Part shown: positions 156 to 33,625 of the stretch, one piece after another
How positions within the stretch are numbered: position 1 is the first letter of the stretch
Layout of the letters: each line of letters begins with the position of its first letter
Assembly (NCBI GenBank): GCA_905250025.1
Contig: CAJNOJ010000080.1
Span: forward strand, 1 to 64,000
DNA length: 64,000 nucleotides
Reading direction: 5' to 3'
Source of the DNA: Adineta ricciae
Lineage: Eukaryota > Rotifera > Eurotatoria > Adinetida > Adinetidae
Translations under genes and position numbers: made by a program
Notes under the pieces: generated by a model
Database searches by the model: none
Told to the model about the DNA's origin: nothing
Seen by the model: only the letters and a program-made list of their open reading frames with translations

Positions 156-1343
156 CCTGAACACTTTATCTAACTGACATCTTATACAAAATATACATAC
201 ATGTGTTCGTCGTATTTTCTTGTTGTTTTTTTTTTTGTTTTAATGTCTCGTTTCTTTTTCTCTCACTTCTTTTTTGTAAACGTATACTCATATTCACTTT
301 TATAAAAGAAAGAAAGTCTAGATCTTTAACCAATATGAATATTCCACGGTCATTTGCCGCCTTTTTTTTCTTAACTATGCTAATTCTTTTTTCTTCACTG
401 CTAAATATAATCAATCGGTTGATTGATCGTCTGCAAGATAAGAATAATACTGACGGTGTCACTGGATCCGGATGTTTACACGAATCGTTTAGCTGATATA
501 TAAAACAATGTTTTTCTCGTCGTCGATGAATTAACGTCTCACTTTCTCTTAGATCGTGCGCCGGCTACTTTTCTTTTGATGCATAAAGCTTCTTGCTCTG
601 ATATCTTATAGCCTCGCAGTGATGTTCATTCATTAGTCGACGTGTTAGTACAAACTGTTAGCATTCATTGTCGTTAGTTTATTTATTCAATGAGGAAAAC
701 AGACGCAGCTCAATTATCGATATTTAGCCTTTTAGTCAAAATTAGTTGACAGTCATTTCGACGATTTCTTCTTCTTTATCGAATAACATGATATTGTTGA
801 TAATAATGATGATGATCTAATCGCATTAGTCTCACACTACGATTCCATCGATTTAATCACAAAGAGATGTTAGATGTGTGACATCAGACATCATGAGACA
901 TATTTGATTTCTAATAAACATTTGCAAGCGACTTAATCTGTTCGATTGTCGTTTTAACACGAACGACAGGAAGAATAGAAAAATGTTTTGTTAATAAAAA
1001 ATGCTTCTATCAATAAATATCAATTGATAAACACACTATCAATCAACTGAATACACCAATGAAGATTAACGTATGTGATAGATGTGTTCCGGAATTAATA
1101 ACATAAGAAAATAGAGGAAAGAACAAGTCGATAAAAAGGCAATGAGATGAATAAAACACGACAAGGCGGTTACTTTAAGCTGCAACTATAATTTTAATAT
1201 ACATTCATTGAAAATCTTTGTCCTGATTAATTTGATCAATATTTTTCCATTCACATGAAATTAACTTCACATGTTGTCTTTTCCTCTGTTCTAATCAATC
1301 ACGTTCGTTAACAATAGAGATAACGAATTCTATTGGTTGGATA
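156..1343. other. Intergenic, no gene seen
   Basis: Roughly 1.2 kb between two convergent genes, so it should hold two 3' UTRs. It is AT-rich with T-runs. The open frames near 170-500 run through homopolymers and look non-coding. AATAAA-like hexamers occur near 990-1020. Confidence 0.5.
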
Positions 1344-2122
1344 TCAGACTTTTCCTTCGAATTTTTTCTCAGCACATTGTTCCGTATGGATGTCAAATAT
1401 CTCAGCATCACGTTTCCAACATTCATGATAAAGATAAGCATCGAATAAATACACCAAATCACCCAAGATTTGTATCAAAAGTGCAGTATCCGAATTGAGA
1501 ATTTTATAGTTTCTATAACAATTGTAAGCGAATAGAATTGCACATAGATAAACGAGATTACCAAGAATATTGAACGCATGTGCCCATACATAGAGATTCT
1601 ATGTCAAAGAGTAAAATAACGAAAAGTGAAAGTCTCTTGCATTACTCGAAAAGTGCAACGGTCTTTTGAATAGTGGGAGAGTTTCTTTCCAAAGATAATG
1701 AACCAACCGAGTAGGACAAGAATGGATTCAATTAGAAAACACAGAATACCAAGGAAATTAAGTAAGAAAATATGATTTATCCATCGTGTTTTATCACAAG
1801 AGAGTACAGCACCAAAGAGATAGAAATAACTGCCAAGATTTTGAAAAATACAGGCAAAAAACTCGGAAGGATATTGAATAGATTTTTGACCTTCTGATGC
1901 TGGAAATTTCATGGCGTAAACATACCAATCAACTGTATATAAACTAGCATCAAGAACAAATAGAATAGCAAGTAATAAGTAAATAAGAAACGAAAGTGCA
2001 TTGTCAAATTTCGTAGAAGTATAACTAATGATATCAATTGTTAAATATCCTATCATACCAATGATATAGACAATATTGGCCCAATAACCCCAGAATAGAA
2101 TTGGTGAAGTTGATGAACACAT
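1344..2122 (-). CDS. Multi-pass membrane protein, family unknown
   Basis: Two exons, 2122-1646 and 1598-1344, joined in phase 0 across a 47-nt GT-AG intron, give about 243 residues. Around six hydrophobic segments are visible, rich in Ile, Leu, Tyr and Trp. Short polar loops separate them and the tail is charged, ending KKFEGKV. There is no signal peptide, and the N-terminus (MCSSTSPILFW) leads straight into a membrane segment. I chose the ATG at 2122 because the frame upstream has only non-ATG codons and an acceptor-like TTATCAG precedes it; an upstream exon is possible. I do not recognise the family. It resembles the many lineage-restricted four- to seven-pass proteins found in rotifer genomes, but that is an impression and not evidence of function. 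Confidence 0.65.
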
Positions 2123-3344: not shown

Positions 3345-5002
3345 AACCTATCATCTTCCCAAATCTCGTTGGTTAACAATGAAATCCCAAGAAATTTTCG
3401 AATATCGATTTATAACTTATTTCGTCACACTAATTCGATTGGTGACCATTCTTCCATTCAAATGTGTTGTATGTATAGTAGAACTAGTTATCAATTAGAA
3501 ACATCCTCATCTACTTGTTTATTGATAGATGGGCATATTTCGTTCAATTGGTGACCTTTTTAACTTCTCTTCTTTTAATCATTCAGGTGGTAAAGGTGTG
3601 TAGAAGAGTTACATTGTTTCTTGATTAATTATCTGTTTTTATTTTATTTTAGAACATTATAGTTGTGAATATGGTTCAGTGAAGTATTATATTTATTGTG
3701 GGATTGGTGGAATGATCAGTTGTGGTATAACACATACAGCTCTTGTTCCATTGGTATGTGTTTTATTATCATAGTTAAATCAGAAATATGTAAAGCATCT
3801 ATGCTCTACTTGTGTGAATTTATCTTTTCAAAAATATTGACTGATAATTCAGTGAAGAAACTGAGGTACGGTGTAATACGGAGACTAATTTATTTTAGGA
3901 TCTAATCAAATGTCGATTACAAGTAAAACCTCAAAAATATGTGAATCTCATAAATGGCTTCAAAGTGACTATTGCGTATGTTTTCTGAGAAGAAGATTGT
4001 GTTTTGTATGATGAAATGCCATCGATTTAGAGAAGAAGGTTTCCTTGGTTTAACCAAAGGTTGGGCGCCGACGTTGATTGGTTATTCTTTCCAAGGTCTC
4101 GCAAAATTTGGTTTCTACGAACTTTTCAAAGTTTTCTATGGTGGTATTCTTGGAGAAGAAAACGCATATCTCTACCGAACATTATTGTATTTATTATCGA
4201 GTGCGTCGGCTGAATTTTTTGCTGACGTCGCTCTATCACCATGGGAAGCGACTAAAGTACGAATACAAACACAAGATAATTGGGCATCAACACTTAGACA
4301 GGGCTTGCCGAAACTTTATGGTAAGAAATGTTTTCTTGGAGAAATCTTTTGTATTGAATCTTCCTTTTCTATGTTTTTAGCGGAAGAAGGATTGTATGGG
4401 TAAGGAGAAGATCGAACGTATATTTTTCATATTGAAAATCAACACTTTCGACGATGATGTTTAGATTTTATAAAGGTATTGTACCACTTTGGCTTCGTCA
4501 AATACCTTATACAATGATGAAATTTGCCTGTTTTGAACGTACGGTTGAAGCTCTCTATAAATACGTTGTGCCTAAACCACGCGAACAATGTACGAAAACC
4601 GAACAACTAGGCGTCACATTTGTTGCTGGATATATTGCTGGAATATTTTGTGCTATCGTTAGCCATCCAGCTGATACGATTGTCTCAAAATTAAATAATG
4701 AAAAAGGTCTGAGTTTGTTTGAGGCCGTCCGTCGTGTTGGTTTTGCGGGTAAATCGAATCAATTAGTCATTTGAATAAAAGACTATTTTCGTCTTTATTT
4801 AGGCTTATGGAAAGGTCTTGGTCCCCGTATATTCATGATTGGAACGTTAACAGCTTTGCAATGGTTCATATACGACACTGTGAAAGTCGTTTTGGCACTA
4901 CCAAGACCACCGCCCCCGCAACCACCACTTTCACTACAGAAAAGATATGCTTTCAATAGTGACAAAGAACCGTTGATACGTGATTTGAGTGTTAAAAGTT
5001 GA
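3345..5002 (+). CDS. SLC25A3: Mitochondrial phosphate carrier
   Basis: Inner-membrane carrier that brings phosphate into the matrix for ATP synthesis. Exons: 3345-3468, 3587-3595, 3653-3753, 3899-3975, 4031-4320, 4381-4399, 4465-4748 and 4803-5002, all phase-consistent, about 367 residues. Three mitochondrial-carrier repeats are visible, with signatures PLDLIKCR, PWEATKVR and PADTIVSK. The stretch from CEYGS through the first repeat (GIGGMISCGITHTA) is diagnostic of the phosphate carrier and not of other SLC25 members. The C-terminus is polar with a PRPPPPQPP stretch. The conserved body from 3653 is certain. The N-terminal presequence is less so: exon 1 has no ATG at its start, so the true first exon may lie upstream, and the frame needs a 9-nt micro-exon (GTGGTAAAG). 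Confidence 0.93.
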
Positions 5003-5156
5003 ATAGGAGGTTTTATCATTAATCATTTTTTTAAACAACATTTTCTTTTGCTTCTCGTTTAATTCTGGTATAATCTTAATTTCGTTGACGCCTGCATTAT
5101 TATTTATGTGATATGTGTATATGAATTTTGTTAAATTCTGATATAAAAAAAAGAGA

Positions 5157-5162
5157 AATAAA
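5157..5162 (+). other. Polyadenylation signal of the phosphate carrier
   Basis: AATAAA about 155 nt after the stop codon at 5002 is the first canonical hexamer downstream of the gene. Inferred from position only. Confidence 0.5.
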
Positions 5163-5657
5163 TCACACGATCTTGTTGACACAAATCTAAAATACTCTAA
5201 TCAGTGAATAAGCAGCACGGCAAACGAAAAAAGAAAATCCATCAGCTAATTAGCAATCGAGGTCATGTGTTAAGGAAATTTATTTCATCACGCGTGCAAC
5301 AGTTAGTACATTTTCTATCGTTCCAGAAAGATTTATCATCAAATATCATCCTCTGAATAATTAACTATGACGAGCAGATCTCTACCTTGGTATTCCCTTA
5401 TTCGGTGGAAGGACAAATATACTTGATTAATTATTGATAGTTTTCTATACTTTATTGATCTACATTGTTTACGTTGACAAGAAACATAACTGTCTAATAC
5501 CATATATTGTTTACTAAAGATCTTCTCTGCACATAACAGAAGAGTGCATCGTCTATGATCATTCACGGTGTATATTCGTTCTTTTTCTCTGCTAAATAAT
5601 GTAAGTTAATATTCATTCGGATGGCAAATTGTCATTAAATTAGTTCTTCGAACAAAA

Positions 5658-5671
5658 TGGATTCGAATCCA
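5658..5671. repeat. 14-bp perfect palindrome
   Basis: TGGATTCGAATCCA is identical to its reverse complement. It lies alone in an intergenic stretch. It resembles the core of a tRNA T-arm but no cloverleaf can be built around it. Function unknown. Confidence 0.4.
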
Positions 5672-6183
5672 AAACAGAGACATCGATGACGTCTGTCAAA
5701 TATTCACATTAGTTCTGACATCAACAAGTCCTTTGTTGGTAAGCTTACATGTAGAGTACTTGAGAGAAAATGAACTCTACCAACTTCGCATCGGAAAACA
5801 AGAGATCTATTTATTTTCTAAAGCAATTTGTATTCATAAGAACATAAAAATATTAAATTGATGAATGAGAAGAATCTTTCAAAATCGAACACTGTTTATC
5901 TTCGTCAGAATACAAAAGAAAATCATTTTTAATTGATTCTTCGTTTTGTTTTCATCATATTTAATTAATATCTCATGGCCTTCTTGCAAATAATGAATTA
6001 TTTGATCTAGTCTCGTGCATAACTGAACAATTCTGTGTCAACTTCTCTGATGAATCAAAGACACGCTCTAGAAGACATTCAAGTTTTATTTGACACAATA
6101 CGAGCGCAGAAAAAGAAAACTTTAACATTTGTTGAAAAAGAACAGTATGTTTATGTATGAATTTGTCAAGGGATCGATGTTTT

Positions 6184-26580: not shown

Positions 26581-28241
26581 TTAACTTGTATCCATTGTAT
26601 TGTCTGATGGTTTTTTCTCATCATTATCCTTCTTGTAGTGTTTTTCCATTGCTTGTGCGAATGCTTGTATGTCACCTTGATTAGCAGCGGCAATCGCTTC
26701 TTCTGGTAGACCAAATTGAGCTAGAACTGGACCTAGTTGTCCTGTTTGTAAAGCAACACTAAATGAACAAAAAGAAAAGAAAGTTTTACAATTTAAAACG
26801 AGAGAAAACAAACCCAAATGTGCTAACAGCTTGTCGAAATTGTGGGGATTGAATAGAATCTCGCAATTCTTTCTCTGTACCTGGAATTGTACTTCCGTCT
26901 GGTAAATGAGATCGTAATGTTTCTTGAACTTCTTTTTTGCTCAAGATCGGAATTAAATTCTATAAGCATGACAAGAAAAACTCGTTTGTCTACAAGAATT
27001 CGATTGGTTTTACCTCTGTTGTCATAATATCATAGAGATCAATAGCAGGTTTAGATGCGGCAGCACTTTGTCCTGCTGCACCAGTACCACCTAAATTGGC
27101 TAGAATATTTGAGAGTGCGCTCATTTGGATAGGACCACCTTTTGGTCCACCAGATGTTGCTGAACTTGCTCCACCAGCGGTTGACGGTGAAGAGCTTGTT
27201 CCACCATTGCGAGGTTTCGATGATGAACCGCTGGGACGTGTGCTGGACGCTGCTGTTGCACTTGCTGTCGCTGTTGCCGCACCTGAACTACGTGTCGCAG
27301 CTGGTGCAGTATTAGGACGAGAATCAGGCGTCTGTTGTCCAAATGTATCTGAAATAAATAATATCAATCATGTAGAGGAGATCGGAAATATCCTACCACG
27401 GTGACTACCTTGCATTAGACCGGGAGCACCTCCACCACTTCCAACAGAAGACAACAGGGATGCTAAATCATTTGGATTCATGCCTGACGAAACCGAAAAA
27501 GAAATTTATAGATATTTTGTTAGTAACCAAAGAATTCCGTTTTACCACGTAGAACATTGGATAAATCGTTTGGATCGATACCACCTGCACCACTACCTCC
27601 TGTCATACGGTCCATAAGAGACTGTAGCGGATGAGCTCCACCTCCAAGTCCACTACCACTATTACTATCATCACCAAATCCTGGTGTTGGTGGATGATTA
27701 AGCTGTGAAAAATAGAACATATTTTCAAATCGATACTAAATCGAAAGCGACGCTTATTACCATTTCATTAATTTTCTTACACCATTCTTCATCTTTATCC
27801 TCTTTTGGTTCTTGCATCCAGAAGAACAATTTTCGAGCATTACTTCTCCATTTGAGTATATAGACTCGTCCTTGACAGATTCAAAATTATTGAAAATCTT
27901 GTCACTAGCAATCATTCCTTTTACCTGTTGTATTTTGTGTTACTTTTTTAAATTCGATTTCATCCGGAAATATGACAAGATCATCTTCGGCTGTGTTACT
28001 TGCTCGTTCTTTCCAACAGAAGTGCATCAACATATCATTGCCTTGATATAAATAAACGAGGCCTTTACGTTTATCAGGATGAACCTACAGCATCGGGCAA
28101 AAAAAGCAAATAAATCATTGAAAATGTATGCCGAAAATTAGAGCATCATACCATACTACCACGTAGATTCATTTTTCCTGCTTTGAATTCAACTAAATTT
28201 CGACTACGAGCTTGTGATGTCATTCCACCGAATAACGACAT
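26581..28241 (-). CDS. ADRM1: Proteasomal ubiquitin receptor ADRM1/Rpn13
   Basis: Eight exons: 28241-28152, 28084-27925, 27870-27761, 27702-27546, 27483-27409, 27348-27014, 26959-26814 and 26758-26581, 416 residues (human protein about 407). It is a subunit of the 26S proteasome lid/base that captures ubiquitin chains and recruits the deubiquitinase UCH37. The N-terminal Pru domain is clear: [34 protein letters not shown] and [10 protein letters not shown], with [21 protein letters not shown] close to other animals. The middle is a Gly/Ser/Ala-rich linker. The C-terminal DEUBAD domain ([54 protein letters not shown]) binds UCH37. The intron at 26813-26760 uses a GTTTGT donor. An acceptor-like TTTCTTTAG lies 34 nt before the ATG. 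Confidence 0.96.
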
Positions 28242-30839: not shown

Positions 30840-31975
30840 ATCCAACAAATGAAATAGAGGTTTTTCGGTGAAAACCGTCTAGCATTTCAAAACCTGAATG
30901 CAATTACATAACTGATTCGTTGAGACGATGTTGAATCAAATTCAGCTTTTTCCAATCCAATTTGACAATCTTATTCAAACTGCATTAGAAAGAACCTCAT
31001 TTTAGATGAAACTCTAGCAGCAATCCTGATTTTTTAAATTTTTTCTCAAGACTTGCTTCCTGGTAAGACCTGCCATCTACTGTATTTATTTATATAAACG
31101 TTGGATGTAATGTACATTAACTGAAATTTGCATTGTATTTTTCAATTATTTGAGATAAAAATAACAATGCAAATACTTACAAAACGATAACATGGTTTCA
31201 GTCGTCTATCAACACATTCAACGAAATAATCTCACAGATACGATATATGGCATGTCGAACAGAATATTTCTCGCGTTTGTTTTTCAATGACGAAAATATT
31301 CCCCGACAAAAAAAAAGGAGTCGTCCACTATCATATCACAATCACGGAGTAAATCTTTTCAAACAAGTTCCTTTCCGTATATCTCATGACAGAAAAACGT
31401 CTATAGAAACATACATGCTAATCAAAGTCATCAAGTATCTATATCAATCATGTGCATACATCCTATAAGAATGTCTGTTGAGTCTTCAATTAACATCATC
31501 TTAATGCATGTCTTCTATCGGTATTTTTCTTCCTCTTTCTTCGTACTTTATTATGTATAGTAAGTATACGCACGTCAATGTAAAGATAAGAGAAAAGTAG
31601 AAGAATATTAACCTTCGACAAATAGTTGATCACGCATCATCAATCACACATAGTTTAGGGTTATCGACTTTCTCAGTTCGTTAATATCTTTTTCGTTGTG
31701 GCCTCTTTTTAGGCGATACTTTTTTGTCTCGATTAAATCATAACTTTCTTTGCATTCAATTGTGAGTAGAATGAATAATAAATGAGAGAACCCATTAAAA
31801 TGAATAAAAGCTATTTAGAGAGACAGGAAAAAAGAACCTCGAACATAGAGTTCGATTTTGTTTTGCGTCAAAGTGTAGGAGGGGAAAAAGAAATTAATAA
31901 ACCTATGTTCGTTTCTGTATGTAGTCAGACATATGTTATTCTCATCAAATTGAAAAGTGTTCCATTTGTTTCTAG
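30840..31975. other. Promoter region between divergent genes
   Basis: About 1.1 kb between APLF (left) and the pseudo-deacetylase gene (right). AT-rich. A good splice acceptor (TTGTTTCTAG) ends at 31975, immediately before the ATG of the right-hand gene. No other gene seen. Confidence 0.5.
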
Positions 31976-33625
31976 ATGAATTTTGAAAGTTTGGCACATA
32001 CTATAGATGACGATTTTGATTTGACCTCGGACTTAGATCACGGTGGTATTGTCATTCCTACGCAAACCTGTGAACATGTCCAATATGTCGAATTGCTCGA
32101 TACGATCGTTCGTATAACTCCAACGCAATGTGTCGATTGTGAAAGTACGACAGAAAATTGGTTATGTCTATCCTGCGGAGAAATTCATTGTAGTCGATAT
32201 GTAAACAATCATGGAGAAGGTCATTGGTTATTTACTCTACTTACTGATGAAAAGTACAATGTGGGACATTGTTTGACAATCGGTCTAGAAGATTTATCGG
32301 TTTGGTGTTATCCATGTAAATCGTATGTAAAAAACGTTCGACTCAATCCGTTGATAAAGTGTATTGAGTCAATTAAGTTTGGTTCCTCCAATGATTCGTT
32401 GGATCAATCATGTGACTGTGAAACACTCGATAATTTAATTCCAACAGTAGATAACCATAATCCATCGACAATCATTGCGATTCAAGAAGCCAGTTTGTTA
32501 AAAGAATTGACTAAAACTGATCTTTTATCCTTTTGCTACACGATGAAATTTCGTTCGGCGTCAATTGATGAATTAGTTCGCTTACATTCAAGTGATTATG
32601 TCAATATGATTGTTTCAGCTGAAAAGGTTCATTCGAAAATCTCAAGCAAACGTTTTCATATCTCATGGTTCGATACGGCATTGTCTACCGCACGTCTAAG
32701 TGCTGGAATGACCATCGATTTAATTCAAAATGTTGTAAACACAGATCATATCAATGGTTTTATACTTTCCACATCTCCAGGACATCGTGCTTTGAAAGAT
32801 CATGGAAATGGTACATCTATCTACAATAACATCGCGTTAGGAGTTAATTCCGTTCTAATGGACAAATCAACGAATAATCCAAGAAAATCTTCATTAGCAT
32901 TAATTGATTCGAATAATCATGTACACATGGAAGGTGCTACACCCATTGAAGATGCCATCTGTCATATGATAAACGTCTTGACTCCATCGTCTGTGTTCGA
33001 ACTGAAACAACCGGCAGCTAAAATTCCCGTAGTTACTGATAATAATAATAATAAAATTCAAATAGAACGTGCTTTCATTGTTGATCTAACATGTGAACAT
33101 GGAAGTGGAATTCAATCGGTCTATTATGAATCGAATCAAGTGTTTTATCTTTCGATACACAAAGAAGAACATCAACATCGATCGAGTTATCATGAATGTG
33201 GCAAAAATCAAGGTATTGGATATACCATGAACATTCCGTTGGCATGTTTCGATCGAGCTTATGACAAAGATTATGAAACGATAATGAAGGAGTTGATTCT
33301 TCCAATAGTAAAAGAATTTCAACCGGAGTTGATTGTTGTTTGTGTTGATTTCGAACTTCCACATATAACAGCGTCGTGTTATGCTTGGATTATTGAACAA
33401 TTCCGTCGCATCGATCAAAGTAAACTCGTCGTTGCTCTCGATGGTGATTTGTCGAACGTATCATCGAAATCAGCCTATGTACAAAAGGTACTCTCAGTTT
33501 TAATCGGAAAATCATCGGAAATATCCGATGACGAATGGAAAAATAGTGGTGTCAATAAAGATGTTCTTCACAAAATCGATTTAATCAAACAAAAACATCA
33601 ACACTATTGGTCTTGTTTTCAATAA
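31976..33625 (+). CDS. ZnF-UBP protein fused to a catalytically dead histone deacetylase domain
   Basis: One uninterrupted exon of 549 residues. Residues about 32-125 form a ubiquitin-binding zinc finger (ZnF-UBP) close to that of HDAC6: C32-x-H34, QCVDC, NWLCLSCGEIHCSRYVNNH, H83, LSVWCYPC. Residues about 180-545 follow a class IIb histone deacetylase throughout, ending like HDAC6 with a HQHYW peptide. Every catalytic block is altered. PGHHA is PGHR at 268-271, DxDxHHG is DLTCEHG at 370-376 (two zinc ligands lost), the GFDA block is DFEL at 458-461, and LEGGY is LDGDL. So it cannot deacetylate by the known mechanism. The finger is N-terminal, whereas in HDAC6 it is C-terminal. A likely role is ubiquitin-chain-end binding with a protein-binding pseudoenzyme, perhaps in aggresome or stress-granule biology; this is inference. 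The ATG directly follows a splice acceptor. Confidence 0.88.
   Translation: MNFESLAHTIDDDFDLTSDLDHGGIVIPTQTCEHVQYVELLDTIVRITPTQCVDCESTTENWLCLSCGEIHCSRYVNNHGEGHWLFTLLTDEKYNVGHCLTIGLEDLSVWCYPCKSYVKNVRLNPLIKCIESIKFGSSNDSLDQSCDCETLDNLIPTVDNHNPSTIIAIQEASLLKELTKTDLLSFCYTMKFRSASIDELVRLHSSDYVNMIVSAEKVHSKISSKRFHISWFDTALSTARLSAGMTIDLIQNVVNTDHINGFILSTSPGHRALKDHGNGTSIYNNIALGVNSVLMDKSTNNPRKSSLALIDSNNHVHMEGATPIEDAICHMINVLTPSSVFELKQPAAKIPVVTDNNNNKIQIERAFIVDLTCEHGSGIQSVYYESNQVFYLSIHKEEHQHRSSYHECGKNQGIGYTMNIPLACFDRAYDKDYETIMKELILPIVKEFQPELIVVCVDFELPHITASCYAWIIEQFRRIDQSKLVVALDGDLSNVSSKSAYVQKVLSVLIGKSSEISDDEWKNSGVNKDVLHKIDLIKQKHQHYWSCFQ

Follow-up and report, generated by a model that had tools for sequence, protein, structure and literature searches.

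We found that contig CAJNOJ010000080.1 (C80) of the bdelloid rotifer Adineta ricciae carries a genuine gene in which a ZnF-UBP finger stands in front of a class II deacetylase domain. The gene lies in the window, by which we mean the whole 64,000-nucleotide stretch of C80 that was analysed. We infer that it encodes a non-enzymatic ubiquitin-tail adaptor, with the finger on ubiquitin and the dead deacetylase domain docked on a partner, and we give this reading a probability of roughly one in two. The host would then have an HDAC6-type ubiquitin reader that is apparently set apart from the HDAC6/10-like chain in charge of catalysis.

The six-frame reading gave 549 codons plus a stop, and the first-pass annotation was right that neither stop nor frameshift interrupts them: a first-order Markov model of the window puts the chance of so long an open frame at about 4e-16. 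Over the same positions, stops number 44 and 49 in the other forward frames and 34, 37, and 22 in the three on the reverse strand. GC at the three codon positions was 0.45, 0.34, and 0.29. The comparison of codon usage with the neighbouring genes was set aside because a wrong frame scored above the ORF frame (0.76 vs. 0.64). Pfam identified zf-UBP at residues 52-120 (58.7 bits, 6.7e-16, cut-off 22.7) and Hist_deacetyl in two stretches on either side of an insert (124.4 bits, 7.9e-36, cut-off 27.9). When the whole protein was searched against solved structures, HDAC6 came top at 1.1e-50, summed over four stretches.

The true start may lie upstream, since a 59-bp intron-like stretch abuts the ATG (Table 1). 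One bdelloid table gives, in its four columns, median intron lengths of 55, 58, 67, and 61 bp (PMC5916493). No introns were seen inside the coding sequence. In-frame introns hidden in the ORF were considered and rejected, the donor patterns tried having matched twice, both times within the conserved finger.

Table 1. Features of the finger-deacetylase gene and of related host genes (positions refer to the window unless another contig is named)
Feature	Position	Strand	Basis
In-frame 39-codon exon, possible protein extension or 5' UTR	31800-31916	+	Sequence pattern
Putative 59-bp intron GTATGT...TTTCTAG, abutting the ATG	31917..31975	+	Sequence pattern
Single open frame, ZnF-UBP finger then class II pseudo-deacetylase domain	31976..33625	+	ORF reading, Pfam
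HDAC6-type ZnF-UBP, residues about 30-137	32063..32386	+	Pfam, alignment with HDAC6
Class II deacetylase fold without zinc site, residues 159-549	32450..33622	+	Pfam, alignments, AlphaFold2, Foldseek
PGHRA (268-272) replacing PGHHA; second tandem His to Arg271	32777..32791	+	Alignment
Insert, about 60 residues inside 295-361, modelled with low confidence	32858..33058	+	Alignment, model
DLTCEHG (370-376) replacing DxDxHHG; zinc ligands Asp to Thr372 and His to Glu374	33083..33103	+	Alignment
C-terminal helices and tail ending HYWSCFQ	33296..33622	+	End-to-end alignment with HDAC7 (KYWGCMQ) and Hda1 (KYWNCFR)
DFEL (458-461) replacing GFDA; third zinc ligand Asp to Glu460	33347..33358	+	Alignment
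LDGDL (488-492) replacing LEGGY; catalytic Tyr to Leu492	33437..33451	+	Alignment
HDAC6/10-like gene, two domains, no ZnF-UBP	C46:409000-418900, 7551 down to 3810	-	Modelled exons, end by eye
Small HDAC6-like finger gene, CxxxxC spacing	C41 piece, 1296-1677	+	Finger scores best with HDAC6
Small HDAC6-like finger gene, CxxxxC spacing	C112 piece, about 1260-1677	+	57% identical to C41 over 103 columns

The finger had been described as a well-kept one of HDAC6 type, and this description stood. Alone against solved structures, it matched HDAC6 best (1.6e-14, 57 bits), followed by the USP49 family (7e-11, 45 bits), with 42% identity to HDAC6 over 78 columns. The 12 zinc-ligand positions of a ZnF-UBP are all present (C32, H34, C52, C55, C64, C67, C72, H79, H83, H98, C111, and C114). 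Ten of the 12 aligned directly with HDAC6 letters; C32 and H34 fall outside the HDAC6 alignment pieces and match the CxH of the host C41 and C112 fingers. The alignment also placed the tail-pocket residues R74, W110, Y112, and Y117, which together with D106 are the counterparts of human HDAC6 R1155, W1182, Y1184, Y1189, and D1178, respectively. Ser73 stands where human HDAC6 has G1154, and an extra 9-residue loop lies between ligands H83 and H98. In the HDAC6 pocket that takes the RLRGG tail, ligands stack between R1155 and W1182 and their carboxylate bonds to G1154, Y1184, and R1155, and R1155A/Y1184A lowers the interaction of HDAC6 with ISG15 (PMC10424181). By these residues, the finger would bind the free C-terminal Gly-Gly of ubiquitin, as the HDAC6 finger does. 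Its integrity is read from the sequence, because the model of the finger is of low confidence (pLDDT < 50 almost throughout in the full-length model, mean 38 when modelled alone). Derivation of the finger from the small C41 and C112 genes was not favoured: these share 34-35% identity with it and have CxxxxC spacing, vs. 42% and CxxC for HDAC6.

The deacetylase domain keeps its fold and has lost its zinc site. The first-pass annotation listed changes in all four catalytic blocks, and we found them as quoted. The blocks line up with PGHHA, DWDVHHG, GFDA, and LEGGY of the HDAC6 domains, and the same columns are changed with respect to prokaryotic deacetylases (the best 80 of 586 relatives); thus, the ligand positions are correctly placed and the possible mis-alignment of intact zinc ligands does not apply. 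Where an active zinc deacetylase has its Asp-His-Asp ligands, the second tandem His, and the catalytic Tyr, or His in class IIa, this protein has T372, E374, E460, R271, and L492. His270, Asp370, and His375 are kept; in HDAC8 numbering, the His142-Asp176 pair is retained and all three metal ligands are lost. With Glu374 and Glu460 as its neighbours, Arg271 could make a salt bridge at the former place of the zinc. From its residues, the domain is predicted to be unable to hold zinc or hydrolyse acetyl-lysine. The insert ALIDSNNHVHMEG was considered as a second, intact block and rejected, since 181 of 500 shuffles scored as well against nine HDAC rows.

The Pfam score and the modelled fold place the domain in the classical (class I/II/IV) HDAC superfamily. 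AlphaFold2, run with the 80 prokaryotic relatives, gave a mean pLDDT of at least 80 in 28 of the 33 ten-residue blocks of residues 161-549 minus 301-360. Over the full length, 301 of 549 residues reached at least 70, and the overall mean was 67.6 because the first 160 residues are essentially unmodelled. The top Foldseek match was zebrafish HDAC6 CD1 (TM 0.74 by target length, 22% identity), with HDAC7, HDAC4, and CD2 close behind. HDAC7 (2e-7, the best score) and Hda1 (4e-6) each align over the full length of the last 109 residues, YW.C tail included, which together with the high-confidence model bears out the earlier statement that the fold is kept to the C-terminal end. Bacterial transfer of the domain was not favoured, with 17-29% identity to the best 80 of 586 prokaryotic relatives vs. 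30% to zebrafish CD1.

Half of the conserved columns are kept (35 of 70; at least 85% conserved in the best 80 of 586 prokaryotic relatives); the losses include the PGTG, SAGFD, and DPL loops. The active-site loops retain 9 of 38 columns vs. 25 of 31 elsewhere (Fisher p 3e-6), a split that excludes one finger column and uses a loop set picked after the column list was seen. Losses in the active-site loops rather than elsewhere argue for selection on the gene and against decay, and it is from this pattern that we infer the selection proposed in the first-pass annotation.

Concerning the class, we built a maximum-likelihood tree of 23 rows: the window protein, 11 animal class II domains, eight of the 80 prokaryotic relatives, and three class I rows. 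The rows from C32, C54, and C64 had been left out beforehand as poor or redundant models. The window protein and the 19 other rows split from the three class I rows with 100/100 support, on a long window branch that the tool flagged as unsure. Its end branch measures 3.4 changes per site and that of a host HDAC on C72 measures 3.57, and the tree does not settle the positions of either within class II. The best pairwise score of the domain was with zebrafish CD1 (319; eight other rows 121-287), and the C-terminal 109 residues scored highest with the class IIa HDAC7. A protein search of the host genome matched, besides the gene itself, only an HDAC8-like gene on C122 (4e-5), and not the HDAC6/10-like gene on C46. 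The domain had been called class IIb. Class II held in the split from class I; the tree gave no placement for IIb and the tail is nearest to a class IIa protein. Class IIb is plausible and no more, because long branches leave the places within class II unsettled.

We searched the host genome (130 Mb, 1033 contigs) with profiles, exon by exon, and counted the best candidates. Among these, PF00850 had 26 matches, grouped into 12 genes on 11 contigs, and PF02148 had 11 matches on 11 contigs. The window contig was the only one common to both sets. As the search ran exon by exon and covered best candidates, the pairing of finger and HDAC is likely, rather than proven, to be absent elsewhere. The small C41 and C112 genes code for little beyond the finger; by eye, no HDAC or USP domain was seen near them in frames within 1.5 kb, with Pfam run on the C41 frame only. 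We take the other zf-UBP rows to resemble the fingers of USP5/13 (C25, C117, and C21) and USP39 (C15 and C9).

The C46 gene has two tandem class II catalytic domains and starts at a Met just before CD1. Both domains have intact RPPGHH, zinc ligands, and LEGGY; the first has GYDV for GFDA, and CD2 has DFDYHMGDG instead of DWDVHHGNG, with Met for the second His. No finger was found in this gene: its frame reaches a stop no more than about 100 residues past the modelled CD2, and the next frame is NDUFA12-like, both judged by eye. Its second domain totals 487 bits with HDAC6 (two stretches) vs. 266 with HDAC10, and by single-domain score HDAC6 CD2 (246), HDAC10 (244), and HDAC6 CD1 (240) are level. 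The tree puts the first domain together with zebrafish HDAC10 (92/84). For these two reasons –level scores and the grouping with HDAC10– we name the gene HDAC6/10-like, with the tandem layout of HDAC6. The two modelled domains contain 18 introns, 17 of them of 47-61 bp. Such short introns and a GC content of 35%, as found here, fit bdelloids (PMC5916493).

The locus itself points to a duplicated region. Identity between C84 and C110 is 94% over 9 kb, and in the four longest aligned pieces C80 matches both at 69-73%; by these identities, C84 and C110 appear to be alleles and C80 their ohnologue. The gene lies between an APLF-like gene, on the opposite strand and with its 5' end about 1.1 kb away, and an HMG-box (SOX-like) gene. 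Relatives of the APLF-like frame stand at 55-56% on C110 and C84 and at 39-42% on C79, C96, and C104. The degenerate tetraploid genome of Adineta vaga has two ohnologous APLF sets, which resembles this pattern (PMC6264785). At the same place, C84 and C110 lack the finger-deacetylase gene and carry HPF1, which has a PBZ finger, together with a weak 14-3-3-like gene. Thus, each ohnologue keeps what the other lacks. HPF1 was not found in the host genome outside C84 and C110, and it is missing from the ohnologous copy in the window. As a separate observation, this HPF1 has its PBZ finger at the N-terminus and adjoins the APLF-like gene, which also has PBZ (about 3550-5680 within the C84 and C110 pieces); the 14-3-3-like gene beside it is on the other strand and below the Pfam cut-off (0.0064).

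Neither DNA nor protein searches of the host genome retrieved a second copy, allele, or paralogue, and the gene is apparently single-copy. The lack of visible introns in its coding sequence, compared with 18 in C46, suggests a retrocopy or cDNA-mediated intron loss. We speculate that the gene arose when the finger at the end of one HDAC6 copy was fused to CD1 at the start of the following copy, which would explain both the domain order and the similarity to CD1.

HDAC6, a class IIb enzyme laid out as CD1-CD2-ZnF-UBP, shares with the window protein the finger type and the tail-pocket residues, and its CD1 is the best match in sequence and fold. Its layout is different: here the finger comes first, as the first-pass annotation had noted, and there is one deacetylase domain, the only two HDAC matches on C80 being the two halves of the ORF. 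Moreover, all zinc ligands and the catalytic Tyr are lost, an insert of some 60 residues is present, and the coding sequence shows no intron. HDAC10 consists of an active polyamine deacetylase domain followed by a pseudo-deacetylase domain (psiDAC) in one chain, and the trypanosomatid prozymes have folds unrelated to the deacetylase fold. The ORF contains no active domain, and no other HDAC match was found on C80 that could supply the HDAC10 layout. The psiDAC resembles our domain in having a class II fold that lacks zinc ligands and catalytic residues and in diverging quickly; the interface helices of psiDAC are conserved, and the assembly of HDAC10 resembles that of HDAC6 and Clr3 (PMC5454378). 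The psiDAC differs in being smaller, without several helices and loops L1-L5, and in following an active domain within one chain that has no ubiquitin finger. The prozymes share with our proposal the logic of a dead partner acting on a live paralogue (PMC5201418, PMC3663545).

The architecture had been proposed as undescribed. We found no description of a finger joined to a dead deacetylase in the open-access literature searched, which is weak evidence, and the dead domain itself is not new, as the pseudo-domain of HDAC10 is a precedent (PMC5454378). For Brachionus, one paper reports the expression of an HDAC6/10 gene (PMC5333405) and the excerpt of another names HDAC6 in a reference only (PMC12571253), with domains mentioned in neither passage. 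The term zf-UBP is absent from the available portion of an annelid HDAC survey (PMC12153100), and a trypanosome paper considered as a precedent is not one, judging from its excerpt (PMC2941730). Among viral contigs, the P0001 search gave no relative, and the finger alone gave one 12-residue match.

In the adaptor reading, the N-terminal finger would capture free C-terminal Gly-Gly ends of ubiquitin in the manner of HDAC6, as its pocket residues suggest. The dead domain, whose fold comes from the model, would serve as a protein-protein scaffold, and the C-terminal helices and tail would dock onto another deacetylase domain through what we take to be the domain-pairing face of HDAC10 and HDAC6. 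The preferred partner would be the finger-less C46 enzyme, to which ubiquitin recognition would be supplied in trans. HDAC10 shows the principle of a dead domain as a docking part, because its pseudo-domain diverges and yet keeps the interface helices. Some findings count against the adaptor: the branch of 3.4 would also result from decay or relaxed constraint, half of the conserved columns are lost, the searches of the host genome found no second allele, paralogue, or orthologue, the model of the finger is of low confidence, and the protein search matched C122 rather than C46. Against the C46 partnership counts that the second domain of this enzyme scores level with HDAC10 and HDAC6. A stronger version is a split HDAC6: ubiquitin reading would have left the catalytic chain for a dead deacetylase of its own, which would pair with the live enzyme via the old domain-domain interface and thus bring it free-ubiquitin-tagged aggregates in trans. 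To our knowledge, a regulatory pseudoenzyme subunit of this kind is known for no other deacetylase. We consider this version distinctly unlikely, with odds lowered because single-domain scores put C46 no nearer to HDAC6 than to HDAC10.

The protein could also be a ubiquitin-reading adaptor that acts alone, apart from HDAC6 function, its shell binding another partner or, non-catalytically, an acetylated peptide. The C41 and C112 genes indicate that fingers apart from catalysis occur in this host, and the unsettled position within class II fits as well. However, HDAC6 is the best single relative of both parts and the finger has the CxxC spacing of HDAC6, not the CxxxxC of C41 and C112, and we consider this reading unlikely. 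Decay is unlikely: an intron-less HDAC6-derived copy or fusion would have lost catalysis and be drifting, with the frame as a remnant. The very long branch, a lone copy for which the assembly showed no allelic partner, the other genes at the ohnologous locus, and the absence of visible introns, compared with 18 in the modelled C46 domains, all speak for it. On the other side are the uninterrupted frame and its chance probability, all 12 ligand positions of the finger, the non-random losses in the active-site loops, and the high-confidence fold through the last residue.

The two remaining explanations concern the start of the protein and its chemistry. It is very improbable that upstream exons add a domain and that the ORF thus covers just the 3' part of a larger protein; the acceptor-like TTTCTAG at the ATG and the in-frame exon before it would agree with this, but no further HDAC or zf-UBP match was found on C80, and the APLF-like gene on the other strand begins close by. 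A domain that is catalytic because its metal or nucleophile site has been rebuilt (Glu374, Glu460, His270, Asp370, and His375) is scarcely credible. Despite the retained H270, D370, and H375 and two carboxylates in place of His and Asp, Arg271 replaces the second His and Leu492 the Tyr, none of the PGTG, SAGFD, and DPL loops is left, and an Arg beside two Glu suggests a salt bridge rather than a metal site.

HDAC6 takes aggregates to the aggresome by means of its finger. A finger on a dead deacetylase, together with a finger-less HDAC6/10-like enzyme, offers a natural separation-of-function case for asking whether ubiquitin reading and catalysis need to share a chain, in bdelloid rotifers that survive desiccation. 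Besides, a near-complete HDAC fold with its zinc site replaced is useful for learning what the shell does without chemistry.

Finally, some neighbouring and related genes deserve mention. The C-terminal UCH-binding domain of the proteasomal ubiquitin receptor RPN13/ADRM1 is encoded at 26584-26940 (-) of the window; that it lies some 5 kb away from the finger gene is probably a coincidence. The very divergent C72 gene (3982-5178 within its piece) is an intron-less class II HDAC with a frame of 398 aa, zinc ligands kept, and the blocks DWDVHRSGG and PAGHHS; by eye, it adjoins a frame resembling a TIR-domain protein. C83 carries two class IIa-like HDACs about 28 kb apart (159785-160531 and 188031-188735), which closely resemble one another, with end branches of 0.06 and 0.04.
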